From a halophilic archaeon (GTDB lineage: Archaea; Halobacteriota; Halobacteria; Halobacteriales; Haladaptataceae), in the NCBI GenBank assembly GCA_003298465.1, contig QNGA01000011.1:1-64000 (forward strand): a DNA stretch of 64,000 nt. Direction: 5' to 3'. Below the pieces are notes generated by a model. It made no database searches. It had not been told where the DNA came from and saw nothing but the letters and a program-made list of their open reading frames with translations. This document shows, one piece after another, positions 25,186 through 49,897 of the stretch (positions are counted from its first letter, which is position 1; each line of letters begins with the position of its first letter). Both the position numbers and the translations under genes were made by a program.

Positions 25186-26724
25186 TCACGCCTCCGGTTT
25201 CCCGAACGCGAACAGCGTCATCGGCGTCTGGTTCGCCGCCCGGGGGGAGAACTGCTCGGTCACGAGGTCGTCGAAGAACGTGAAGCCGCGGCCGCCGAGG
25301 GCGCGGTGGGCGTAGGTGGCGAGATACAGCCGTCCCAGTTCGATTCCGGCCGCCAGCTGGGCGACCCGATAGCCGCGGTTCCCGACCGCCTCCACGACGG
25401 CGTCGACGTCCGCCATGAGGTAGACGTTCACCGCGGCGTCGCCGACGACCGACTGGCCGAGCGCGAGGCGGCCGGCGGTGCGACGGTCGGCGTCGCCGAG
25501 ACGTTCGAGGACGTTCGCCTTGGGATGGTACTGGTAGGCTCCGCTCGGAACGTCGTCGACGGCGTGGACGAGACAGTAACAGTCGACCAGCCGCCGACTG
25601 CCGTCGGACCCGAGGCAGTCGAACGGCACGCCGCGGAGCGCCCGGTCGAGCACCGTGGCGAACTGTCGCGGACTGACGGCGTCGTGGCCGTACTCCCGCA
25701 ACGACCCCCGGCGCTCGACGGTGGCGCTCACGGGACGACTCGACGCCGTCTCTGCGTCGACCGGGTCGAGCGCGATCGTCTCGCCGTCGCCCGGTCCGTG
25801 GGTTCCGAAGGCGTCCTCCGGGAGTTCGTCGAAGCCGTCGCGCCACGCCCGCGCCGCCTCGCCGTCCGCCACCCTGCTCTGGCGCCACGCGTCGGGAACC
25901 AGCGGATAGTCGACGACCTCCTCCGACGGCGGCGTCTCGTCCGGGTCGATAGCCGCGACGTCCGACGCGTCCGGGACGGGGTCCCCGCTGCCGACGGGGA
26001 CGAGTTCGAGGGGCGCTTCCTCCTCGGGGTCGACGCCGAGCAGTCGGGCGACGGCGTCGTCCGCGAACCCGGTGACGACTGTCGCCCGGCGTCCGGTCCC
26101 GTGCGCGACGGCCAGCAGGTTGGCCAGGATGGTGCCCGAGTCCCAGAACGCGTGACGATACGTTCGCTCGCGGTACTTCCAGGCGTTGCGCCACCACTCG
26201 GAGGTGGCGACGAACGTCACCGGAGCGTTCGACACCGACCGCTGGTCTCCCGCCGCCCGTGCGAGCGCGCCGCGGTAATCGCCCTCGCGGAGCACGTCGA
26301 AGGACCCGGAGTCGGGGTCGAAATGGTAGACGCCCGGGGCGAGTCCGTCGACGTCGCCGACGACGGCGTAGAGGTCCACGTGGTAGAGCTTCCCCGTGCA
26401 GGACGCGGCGCGAAAGCGCATCCGCCGGCCCTGCTTCTCCAGTTCCTTCGTGACGCCCGTGGAATAGTGACAGAGCGTGACGACGTCACGGAAATCGACC
26501 GAGGACGCGTCTTCCCCGCCCCGCGGGTCGGCGCTCGCGTTCGCGACGGCCGACAGCGCCGGCTCCTCGACCGACCGCATCGGCTCCGGCGGCGAGACGC
26601 GCGGGCGGTCCTCGTACACCTTGTACGGCCGCGGCTTGTTCGCGTAGTCCAGCGAGAACGCGTCGTTGCGGACGCTCTCCATCGAGTGTTTCGTCCGCTC
26701 GTGGTACTCCCGTGCGTCGACCAT
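25186..26724 (-). CDS. SagB/ThcOx-type nitroreductase-fold oxidoreductase, two-domain
   Basis: 512 residues, about twice the length of a simple nitroreductase. The N-terminus has the SagB hallmark 'YHERTKHS' followed by 'SLDYANKPRPYKVY'. Each half carries nitroreductase features: 'LCHYSTGVTKEL' and 'FRAASCTGKLYHVDLYAVV' in the first, 'VSATVERRGSLREYGHD' and 'VVDCYCLVHAVDDVPSGAYQYHP'-like in the second. SagB-type enzymes are FMN-dependent dehydrogenases that oxidise azolines in thiazole/oxazole-modified peptides, but many haloarchaeal copies stand alone. No YcaO cyclodehydratase is nearby. It is followed by a methyltransferase and lies opposite an ABC transporter. Confidence 0.82.
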   Translation of the reverse strand: MVDAREYHERTKHSMESVRNDAFSLDYANKPRPYKVYEDRPRVSPPEPMRSVEEPALSAVANASADPRGGEDASSVDFRDVVTLCHYSTGVTKELEKQGRRMRFRAASCTGKLYHVDLYAVVGDVDGLAPGVYHFDPDSGSFDVLREGDYRGALARAAGDQRSVSNAPVTFVATSEWWRNAWKYRERTYRHAFWDSGTILANLLAVAHGTGRRATVVTGFADDAVARLLGVDPEEEAPLELVPVGSGDPVPDASDVAAIDPDETPPSEEVVDYPLVPDAWRQSRVADGEAARAWRDGFDELPEDAFGTHGPGDGETIALDPVDAETASSRPVSATVERRGSLREYGHDAVSPRQFATVLDRALRGVPFDCLGSDGSRRLVDCYCLVHAVDDVPSGAYQYHPKANVLERLGDADRRTAGRLALGQSVVGDAAVNVYLMADVDAVVEAVGNRGYRVAQLAAGIELGRLYLATYAHRALGGRGFTFFDDLVTEQFSPRAANQTPMTLFAFGKPEA

Positions 26725-27093
26725 CGGTTCGTCAATGGACCACGAGCCACAAACCGTTTCGGACCGTCTCCGGTCCGGACCGGTCCCCGCCGGGGACGGG
26801 CGAAACCGCGGCTGCCGAACGGAGGCGGTCGGAACCGGCCCCTCGCGGACGAACGCGTGAACCGGACGCTATCTCATCCCGTCGGTATCCGGAGCGGTCT
26901 CGGCTCCCGGTTTCTGTCGACTCGCGGGGAGGAGTTGCCTTCCGGATGCCGTACTCGTCCGTCGCGACCCGTCGAACGCTGTCTCGGCGGCCGTCGCAGG
27001 AACACCCTCAGCTATTTAATCTCTCCCCGAGCACACATATCCGATGTCAGCCCTCCAACTGCTCCCCGCTGCCCGTAGAGAACGGGAGGACCC
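26725..27093. other. Intergenic region with ABC operon promoter and a possible 41-codon frame
   Basis: About 370 bases between the divergent SagB-like and ABC genes. A short plus-strand frame (ATG at 26735, stop at 26860) encodes 41 residues with one Cys and many Arg and Gly; support is weak. Near the right end 'gctatttaatctc' at about 27010-27022 is the likely TATA box of the ABC operon. A strong Shine-Dalgarno-type 'gggagga' sits at 27083-27089, so this transcript has a leader. Confidence 0.5.
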
Positions 27094-47272: not shown

Positions 47273-47512
47273 ATGTGCACGCACCGGACGACGAAAGTCA
47301 CGGTAGCGGCGCTCCTTCTGGCACTCGACGAAAACGAGTTCCGCCTTCCGGATTTGAAAGACCACCCGTCGTTCCCCGAAAATGCTCCTTCCAACAGCAC
47401 GGTCCGGCTGGTGCTGCGGCAGTTGGAAGAGAGCGGTTGGCTTGAGCGCTACCATCCCAAGGGACGGATATGGACCGCGAGCGACCAGCTCGAAGAGCGA
47501 CTGTCCCCGTAA
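47273..47512 (+). CDS. Small winged-helix protein
   Basis: 79 residues from the ATG at 47273, following a TATA-like 'cgtatacttattgg' about 35-45 bases upstream. A single winged helix: 'TTKVTVAALLLALDENEFRLPDL', then the recognition helix 'NSTVRLVLRQLEESGWLERY', then the wing 'HPKGRIWTAS'. It resembles one-domain regulators that control neighbouring genes. The next 650 bases downstream are noncoding and hold possible binding motifs. Confidence 0.75.
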   Translation: MCTHRTTKVTVAALLLALDENEFRLPDLKDHPSFPENAPSNSTVRLVLRQLEESGWLERYHPKGRIWTASDQLEERLSP

Positions 47513-48158: not shown

Positions 48159-48488
48159 ATGAAAGAGACACACAAAATGGAAGCTCAGGCAGCAGATGAA
48201 CGTTCACGTCGCTCATTCCTGCGAGCTGCGAGTGTTACGGCCGTCGCGGCAACCGGGTTTGCCGGAACGAGCGCCGGTCACGAAGTACCAGCCTGCAAGA
48301 AATCCGAGGGCAAAGCTCCTTACAAAAACCCCCACTGCAAAAAAGGACACAAGAAGCACAAAAAGAAGAAAAGACACAAGAAAAGGCGTAAGAAAGAGAA
48401 AAAGAAGAAAAAGCACAAGAAAGGGAGAAAGAAGCGTAGGAAGGGGAGAAAGAAGGGCAAGCGGAACAAAAAGAAGTACGACCCGTAA
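48159..48488 (+). CDS. Tat-exported polycationic (Lys/Arg/His-rich) protein
   Basis: 109 residues from the ATG at 48159; an ATG at 48177 would shorten it by six. A perfect Tat motif ('RSRRSFLRAA') and a hydrophobic Ala/Val segment end near 'GTSAG', the likely cleavage region. The mature chain has two cysteines ('VPACKKSEG' and 'NPHCKKG'). Of the last 49 residues, 28 are Lys and 8 are Arg, with several His and only two acidic residues. This is the reverse of the acidic norm for proteins in saturated salt. Codons are mainly AAG and AAA, giving a purine-rich coding strand unlike any neighbour. No family is recognised. Possible roles: binding of extracellular DNA, acidic polymers or the acidic S-layer, or killing of competitors. 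Confidence 0.8.
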   Translation: MKETHKMEAQAADERSRRSFLRAASVTAVAATGFAGTSAGHEVPACKKSEGKAPYKNPHCKKGHKKHKKKKRHKKRRKKEKKKKKHKKGRKKRRKGRKKGKRNKKKYDP

Positions 48489-48577
48489 TCGGCGTTCGAC
48501 ATCTCGATACTTTTTGTGCGGTGCCGCGAGTAAGTAGTCGGATTCCGCCGTCCTCCGCCCGGTGACGAGAAGGGGGA

Positions 48578-49678
48578 CTACCGGGACGACTCGTCCTTGC
48601 GCTCGTGGTACGGCGGCACCCAGATGTCCCGGTCGACCATTTCGTCGATGCGCGCCTGCGTCACCTCCTCTGCGTACTCGTCGTGGTGCGGCGGTTGCTC
48701 GTCGAGATACCGGTTCTTCGGGTAGAGTTCCCGGTCGTACACGACCTGACAGAGTTCGGTGCGGAGGTCCTTCAGCCAGTTCGTGAGCGGCGAACTCGTT
48801 CGGTACTCGCGGAGCCCCTCGACGTCTATCGGCGCACCGACGTACGAGGAGCCGGCTCCGTAGTCGTGTTCCGCGACGACGTTGCCCCGGTAGTCGACGA
48901 CCATCGACCCGCCGCCGAACGTGTCGACGGGCGTCTCCTCGTCCGGCGTCAGATAGTAGGTGCCGAGGTTCGGAGCGACGACGTAGGCGGTGTTGTCGAG
49001 TGCGCGGGCGCGGTTCTGGACGCGCCACCCGTCGTTGGCCACGAGCGGTTCCGGACAGGAGATGCGACAGACGATTTCCGCGCCGTTCATCGCGAGACCG
49101 CGGACGTACTCGGGGTACGCGCCCTCGATTGCCAGCGAGATACCGATGCGACCGATGTCGGTGTCCGCGACCGGGAAGAACGCGTCGAGGTCGTCGCCGT
49201 GTTCGTCCACCCATGCGTCCCACACGTCGTGCGGACTCACAGACCGCTCGACGGGCAACAGCGGCGTCACCTTCCGGTGTTTCATGACGAGTCCGTCGTC
49301 GGGACTGATGACGAACGCCGTGTTGAAGAACTTGTTCGGGAACTTCGCGCCCGCTCGCTCCTTCGCCGACGCGACGATGTACGTCTCGAACTCCTTCGCA
49401 TACTCACAGAGCGTGTCCGTCTCGTCGCCGGGGACGTCGATGGCGATTTCGTCCGCGTACGTCGCGTGGTCCATGTCGAAGACCTCGTCGGTGAACCCCT
49501 GCAGCGCGCCCTCGGGGACGACCGCGAGCTTCACCGGCAGTTCCAGACTGCTGAGCCAGGTCGCCGCCTTGAGGTTGTCGTGGATGTGATCGAGGTTCTT
49601 CTGGATGTCGCTGCGCTCCGTCGCGCCCCAGACGGTCGGCGAGAGACCGACCGCCGCGTACTGCTCTATCTTGGACAT
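48578..49678 (-). CDS. Nitrilase-superfamily protein lacking the catalytic cysteine
   Basis: 366 residues from the ATG at 49678. The fold of carbon-nitrogen hydrolases is clear: Glu56 in 'VVPEGAL', Lys136 in 'HRKVTP' and 'RIGISLAIEGAYPEYVRGLA' for the usual 'IGVLICYDLRFPE' segment. At the cysteine position stands Ala183 (codon GCA, read on the minus strand at 49130-49132), so the Glu-Lys-Cys triad is incomplete and amide or nitrile hydrolysis is not expected. The C-terminal 90 residues are long and acidic with 'DRDIWVPPYHERK'. It may be a catalytically inactive relative or use another chemistry. It is convergent with the lysine-rich gene, 89 bases apart. Confidence 0.8.
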   Translation of the reverse strand: MSKIEQYAAVGLSPTVWGATERSDIQKNLDHIHDNLKAATWLSSLELPVKLAVVPEGALQGFTDEVFDMDHATYADEIAIDVPGDETDTLCEYAKEFETYIVASAKERAGAKFPNKFFNTAFVISPDDGLVMKHRKVTPLLPVERSVSPHDVWDAWVDEHGDDLDAFFPVADTDIGRIGISLAIEGAYPEYVRGLAMNGAEIVCRISCPEPLVANDGWRVQNRARALDNTAYVVAPNLGTYYLTPDEETPVDTFGGGSMVVDYRGNVVAEHDYGAGSSYVGAPIDVEGLREYRTSSPLTNWLKDLRTELCQVVYDRELYPKNRYLDEQPPHHDEYAEEVTQARIDEMVDRDIWVPPYHERKDESSR

Positions 49679-49897
49679 GCAGGAACAGATACGACCATGA
49701 TATGGCATGACTTAACGTTAGCGTCGCACCGGACGAACGAGCCGTCCGCCCCGAGTCCGCCGCGTCCGAACTGCTCGGGAGGACAACGTAGTCTCCACTT
49801 TCGTCCGCCGATGTATATAGTGAACCGATTAATACTTTTATCATCTATATAGAAAATACAAAGGCATTAGTCGTCGTGAAGAGCAGTGTCAGTCGTA

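Follow-up and report, generated by a model that had tools for sequence, protein, structure and literature searches.

The proteins of haloarchaea are famously acidic, and their brines hold 2.5-5 M salt. A small gene in the window (the whole stretch of DNA that was analysed, 64,000 nucleotides long) is predicted to encode an exported protein which, if cut after residue 40, leaves a mature chain of 69 residues with a net charge of +36 (computed pI 11.2), and this raises the question of what a polycation may do outside the cell in molar salt. An earlier note on this DNA had described it as a Tat-secreted, Lys/Arg-rich protein of no known family.

The gene, its signal and its surroundings

The product is called P0001 here, and the features of the locus are as follows.

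48159..48488, + strand: coding sequence of P0001, 109 aa with ATG start, a probably exported two-Cys peptide with a polybasic tail (homologue P0002)
48159..48278, + strand: Tat-type signal region, residues 1-40, with the motif SRRSFLR and then a hydrophobic stretch
48279..48344, + strand: conserved head HEVPACKKSEGKAPYKNPHCKK, residues 41-62, C46-x13-C60 (alignments A2 and A3)
48339..48485, + strand: Lys/Arg-rich tail, residues 61-109, ending in KKKYDP
48378..48434, + strand: 2.1 tandem copies of a repeat unit 27 bases (9 codons) long, in frame within the tail
48511..48515, + strand: run of five T, 23 bases 3' of the stop, a possible archaeal terminator by sequence reading
47273..47512, + strand: neighbouring ORF of 79 aa, of winged-helix look by eye, without Pfam match
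48578..49708, - strand: neighbouring nitrilase-type carbon-nitrogen hydrolase, convergent (PF00795)

Searched against about 5.8 billion protein sequences, P0001 had a single other match at E <= 0.001, P0002 (102 aa); over the first 60 residues the two are identical at 58. Their tails are separated by a 7-residue gap and several exchanges, yet keep the same Lys/Arg/His make-up and the same KKYDP end. The earlier note had allowed for a frame with no homologue in any genome; here a near-identical one exists, and judged by it P0001 is a real gene. Because the two copies keep signal, head and tail make-up, a chance frame is ruled out, as is a polypurine DNA element, by this homologue together with a six-frame control of the window. 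The last 49 residues of P0001 hold 28 Lys and 8 Arg, which agrees with the 36 counted before, next to 4 His and 2 Asp/Glu. Among the 74,462 windows of 49 residues in the control, the next separate one reached 29 Lys/Arg with not a single Lys, and the highest Lys count outside P0001 was 6, against 28 inside, so that the tail is as extreme as had been claimed. The codon use is likewise unlike that of the neighbours, with a GC3 of 0.58 in P0001, 0.74 in the upstream ORF of 79 aa and 0.85-0.90 in three neighbours that have a Pfam assignment; the GC of the tail DNA is 0.42, and between 47 and 49 kb of the window the local GC falls to 0.57-0.58.

On its 5' side the gene is preceded by the 79-aa ORF and by some 650 bases in which no frame makes a convincing gene, a third neighbour is a stretch matching NAD(P)-dependent oxidoreductase, and a scan for bacterial-type terminators found none. 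The hydrolase is 88% identical in protein to Haladaptatus and the cobalamin genes of the window match Haladaptatus at about 78% in DNA, which indicates a haloarchaeon akin to Haladaptatus-like haloarchaea as the source. At about 25198-26726 the window also matches a gene of Haladaptatus that bears the annotation SagB family peptide dehydrogenase. The 14 loci with relatives of the hydrolase (L001-L014) held no Lys-rich frame of this kind and no head motif. An origin of P0001 from a phage or plasmid found no support: no relative was confirmed in viral contigs, searched with one pattern, and plasmids gave no match at E <= 1.

The signal had been called a textbook Tat signal. The Tat-type motif SRRSFLR is present, but 'textbook' is slightly strong, because P0001 scores 16.0 bits on the NCBIfam Tat-signal model TIGR01409, under its cut-off of 16.7, which P0002 passes with 18.5 bits. 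M7 at 48177 is an alternative start. We infer cleavage before H41, since relatives show AMA or AFA before the corresponding H. A Tat lipoprotein, with VPAC as lipobox and C46 lipid-anchored, would be in keeping with the prediction that about half of haloarchaeal Tat substrates are lipoproteins (PMC2945643), but it is hardly credible for this protein. The lipobox rule given in the same source places the Cys 12-21 residues after the twin Arg and allows no charged residues before the box (PMC2945643); in P0001 C46 follows the second Arg after an interval of 27 residues, with H and E close before the box, and P0001 was rejected as a Tat lipoprotein on that rule. Moreover, in P0004, P0007 and L055, relatives described below, a long linker keeps VPAC well away from the signal.

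The two-Cys head

The two Cys pointed out in the earlier note (C46 and C60) are present, and it is these two, along with VPxC and NPHC, that are conserved among the relatives. V43, P44, C46, N57, P58 and C60 are invariant in all 9 rows of A3 and the spacing C46-x13-C60 is constant; as aligned, the conserved part of the protein is the head, VPAC-x13-C ending in NPHC, and not the tail. P0001 carries the arrangement by which VPAC-x13-NPHC exported peptides are defined in this analysis, a signal and then VPxC-x13-C with NP before the second Cys. The head recurs in at least two Haladaptatus genomes and four further assembly proteins. In the H. pallidirubidus genome residues 40-62 of P0001 found a match of 83% (HGVPACKKSQGKAPKKNPHCKK), profile searches added P0003 and P0005 and then P0006 and P0007, and a search of the genus added L055, an orthologue of the H. 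pallidirubidus protein; the search that yielded P0006 and P0007 scored the best 7975 candidates by shared words, so that the relatives counted are a lower bound.

The H. pallidirubidus protein P0004 (ACFFQF_01890, 81 aa) and L055 are like P0001 in the head, VPACKKSxGKAPxKNPHCKK, in being predicted to be exported, in their richness in Lys and in the KKY end. They are unlike it in having no twin Arg in the signal, a Lys/Asp linker before the head, which in P0004 comes to lie near the end, no long tail, and a different locus, between idsA and gltX. This pair is under purifying selection (dN 0.050, dS 0.557; 15 synonymous and 7 non-synonymous codons differ among 78 aligned). P0003, P0005 and P0006, from JGI assemblies, share with P0001 a head directly behind the signal, a charged tail and a KKY or KKYY end, and differ in a signal that, by eye, has no twin Arg and in a Lys/Asp/His tail of much lower net charge; P0003 and P0006 carry the source label 'Ni/Co efflux regulator RcnB'. 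The charged segment lies behind the head in P0001, P0002, P0003, P0005 and P0006 and ahead of it in P0004, P0007 and L055. A Tat signal followed by a Lys-rich tail, which the earlier note had proposed as the motif to search for, is not supported as the definition of the group, as by eye the relatives' signals are without twin Arg, the charged stretch moves and the tails vary.

No Pfam or NCBIfam model matched over its cut-off save the Tat-signal model, and that for P0002 alone, which bears out the earlier statement that no family was known; of P0001-P0007 the Pfam scan covered P0001, P0003 and P0007, and it gave sub-cut-off matches of P0007, P0003 and L057 to unrelated models. By the libraries searched, and for the members scanned, the head is an undescribed family. 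Among the papers listed by literature searches, no title or opening of an abstract describes such a Lys-rich or small exported haloarchaeal protein. An AlphaFold model of P0001 was weak in the head (pLDDT below 50 at 34-44 and 47-50, pTM 0.38) and showed a confident helix across the tail, which may be an artefact of the Lys-rich sequence; a profile search against solved structures gave one match, at E 0.091.

The two Cys would form a disulfide loop outside the cell, and the head would be the working or recognising part. The alternative, that the head binds a metal ion through its Cys and His (H41, C46, H59 and C60), is unlikely in our estimate. H59-C60 is present in all 8 Lys-rich members, a His stands two residues before VPAC or adjoining it in 7 of the 8, and P0003 has weak sub-cut-off matches to metal-related models. 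Against metal binding, the His before the second Cys is replaced by Asn or Thr in six tail-less peptides, the HNPAG group described below, and no metal-related gene is found among the Pfam-assigned neighbours.

Relatives in Halobacteria and at the idsA-gltX junction

P0001 was compared with 391 sampled Halobacteria genomes, and at least 44 of them gave at least 47 matches at E <= 0.01, several of which span the head but are loosely aligned. The loci of 30 of the 47 matches held the head motif in H. pallidirubidus only, the motif being narrow (it misses L067, L109 and L110), and, when scanned for Lys-rich frames, one Lys-rich exported protein, L042. This haloarchaeal protein (1486-2013) has a Tat-type signal, a long Lys-rich stretch and then a Cys-containing part without Pfam match. 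A Natrialba swarupiae protein (L017, 451-1678) has a Lys/Arg-rich C-terminal tail. Profile A2, built without the HNPAG group, matched at least 3 of the 391 genomes at E <= 0.001, namely H. pallidirubidus and two with HNPAG peptides (1.0e-4 and 3.8e-4 per genome, which alone are not significant across 391 genomes). Profile A3, to which these two peptides had been added, matched at least 28 of the 391 at E <= 0.01, and the seven at E < 1e-10 were H. pallidirubidus and six with HNPAG peptides, a step that is partly circular because two of the six built the profile; matches beyond the seven were not counted as relatives. All these counts are lower bounds, as the best 12 (P0001), 15 (A2) or 17 (A3) candidates were scored per genome. 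Beyond Halobacteria, five genomes (by title two archaeal and three bacterial) gave no match, a result that is uninformative.

The HNPAG group (L063-L068; L092-L097) consists of tiny, apparently exported two-Cys peptides in at least 6 of the 391 genomes. Like P0001 they have a signal and then C-x13-C, with VPxC in 4 of the 6 and NPxC in 5 of the 6, and unlike it they have no charged tail. Those matched by A2 have the form AHNPAGxxVPxC-x13-C, and L067 (VAGC) and L068 (VSGC, NHNC), which are outside A3, break the Pro positions. When each peptide was shuffled 2000 times, its true score was reached by 3 shuffles for L063, 0 for L064 and 0 for L065, and by 55 for L066, 61 for L067 and 496 for L068; homology to the VPAC-NPHC head is supported against the shuffles for three of the six and is tentative for the rest. 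Four of the genes adjoin a GST-family gene, with the L10e ribosomal protein on the other side in 3 of 3 tested, and the other two adjoin a Rieske-domain gene. The one HNPAG peptide scanned against the family models gave none over cut-off (L061 scored 15.1 bits against Pfam DUF7860, cut-off 27). L079 and L087, with a similar signal, an AHGP or AHNPAG start and another Cys arrangement, are possible distant kin of the group.

The tips themselves may be exchanged on one chassis. The signal region of P0007 matches, weakly (64% over 28 residues, E 0.1), that of WP_227380007.1, a protein on two plasmids of Haladaptatus halobius (frames L057, 1489-1791; L090, 1346-1651; L091, 4001-4306), which has a Lys-rich linker, a KKY end and a different Cys tip, VTICHRPPGNP...GPC, which we take to resemble a module of bacterial exported proteins. 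The weak signal match, the linker and the KKY end together suggest such an exchange.

The genes of P0004 and L055 lie between idsA and gltX, where gltX was tested for both (class I tRNA synthetase E/Q domain) and idsA (polyprenyl synthetase domain) for L055. The window gene lies beside the hydrolase and not at this junction. Across nine Haladaptatus genomes the junction holds a VPAC-NPHC protein in two (L106 and L108) and looser look-alikes in two, and is empty in four, with 146, 108 and 108 bases in L107, L111 and L112 and gltX closely behind idsA in L113; in L114 the 1.5 kb scanned showed no gltX. An ORF of L114 resembles, by eye, the window ORF at 47273-47512. The look-alikes are small, seemingly exported proteins, L109 with the looser head HPGCNDYNKDKNKHC and an Asp/Gly/Asn-rich tail, and L110, on the opposite strand, with the looser head FPGCNKHTKHKNPHC and an Asp/Asn/Gly-rich tail. 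Both heads have fewer residues between the Cys than the VPAC-NPHC protein. L110 (as L103) gave one profile match, at E 2.3e-5, and the genome of L109 gave none at E <= 0.001; homology to the VPAC-NPHC protein, argued from place and pattern, is tentative. The junction (L106-L114) has the look of an accessory spot, with varied small exported proteins or none.

The charged tail and its possible role

The net charge per mature residue, with cut sites set by eye, is +0.52 in P0001 and 0.42 in P0002, 0.08-0.29 in P0003-P0007 (+0.08 in P0003, +0.17 in P0004), -0.06 in L103 and below zero in L063. The extreme polycation is, by this comparison, a local elaboration, found among the sequences searched in two near-identical copies only, and the best reading of P0001 is probably that of an exported peptide with a fast-changing charged tail. 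All 8 Lys-rich members end in KKY, KKYY or KKYDP, which shuffles of the tails reach in 2-10%, a rate that is not a probability because the rows are related. The 27-base in-frame repeat makes in-frame duplication a possible cause of changes in tail length.

It could be argued that the tail is mostly a neutral repeat expansion by AAG/AAA slippage, tolerated because it lies outside the acidic cytoplasm, and that the head alone is functional. The tandem repeat and shorter periods in the tail DNA, the 7-residue gap between P0001 and P0002, and the differences in length and charge among the relatives' tails speak for it; on the other hand the two near-identical proteins differ at several tail sites and still keep composition and end, and the KKY-type end is common to all 8 members. 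On balance we consider neutral expansion rather unlikely.

The reading we prefer, tentatively, is that of a small exported protein whose tail is a polycation tethering it to polyanions, most strongly at low salt. Export, the conservation of the head and the repeat origin of the tail are likely, while tethering is a reasoned guess. The tail would be a disordered or helical polycation, grown by in-frame duplication of AAG/AAA-rich repeats, and would tether the peptide to polyanions around the cell, such as the acidic S-layer, exopolysaccharide or extracellular DNA. It counts against tethering that electrostatic binding should be weak at 2.5-5 M salt, and since the family does not keep the polycation, the head could also act on its own. 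A polylysine some 50 residues long releases DNA near 0.85-1 M NaCl; poly-L-lysine of 50 residues and dsDNA are reported to phase-separate only up to 850-1000 mM NaCl (PMC13191486). The tethering would for that reason be loose in strong brine and tight once the brine is diluted, and the tail would do its work mainly at times of falling salinity. Strains near Haladaptatus are reported to withstand 0.5% salt water, with a viability of 20-34% left after 9 days (PMC1828056).

A sharper form of the tethering reading, which we hold to be improbable, is a salt-gated polycation, inert in saturated brine, where its charge is screened, with the two-Cys head as cargo, and gripping below about 1 M. After dilution by rain or groundwater it would take hold of extracellular DNA, of neighbours or of the acidic surface of its own cell, and, if this is true, ionic strength alone would drive the protein as a switch. 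The segments of the relatives and look-alikes span strongly basic, mixed and acidic ones, and offer a natural comparison set for disordered tails in brine.

A different role, that of an antimicrobial, halocin-like peptide whose polycationic tail would disrupt the membranes or cell surface of competitors, agrees with P0001 being small, cationic and probably exported, and there is a precedent in a secreted haloarchaeal precursor which yields an antagonistic peptide upon protease cleavage (PMC12893001). But salt screens charge, the Pfam-assigned neighbours of P0001 are metabolic or transport genes, and the H. pallidirubidus relative is weakly basic and encoded between idsA and gltX; we find this role quite unlikely.

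A known system that is comparable in its way of working is the E. coli acid-shock protein Asr, which is described as an intrinsically disordered chaperone (PMC10746267), and P0001 could by analogy be a secreted, basic, disordered stress protein that keeps envelope proteins soluble. P0003 matches the Asr model NF033636 with 24.6 bits, below its cut-off of 50, a match that is likely compositional only, and P0001, P0002, P0004 and P0007 have no Asr match at E <= 1, so that P0001 was rejected as a member of the Asr family. None of 28 Haladaptatus-family genomes matched the model at E <= 0.01, while in the control 2 of 14 named genomes did, including E. coli, and an Asr-like function is in our view doubtful. 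To our knowledge Asr is also without a two-Cys head, so that P0001 is unlike Asr in its head and in its score on the Asr model, and like it in being, by prediction, exported, basic and disordered.
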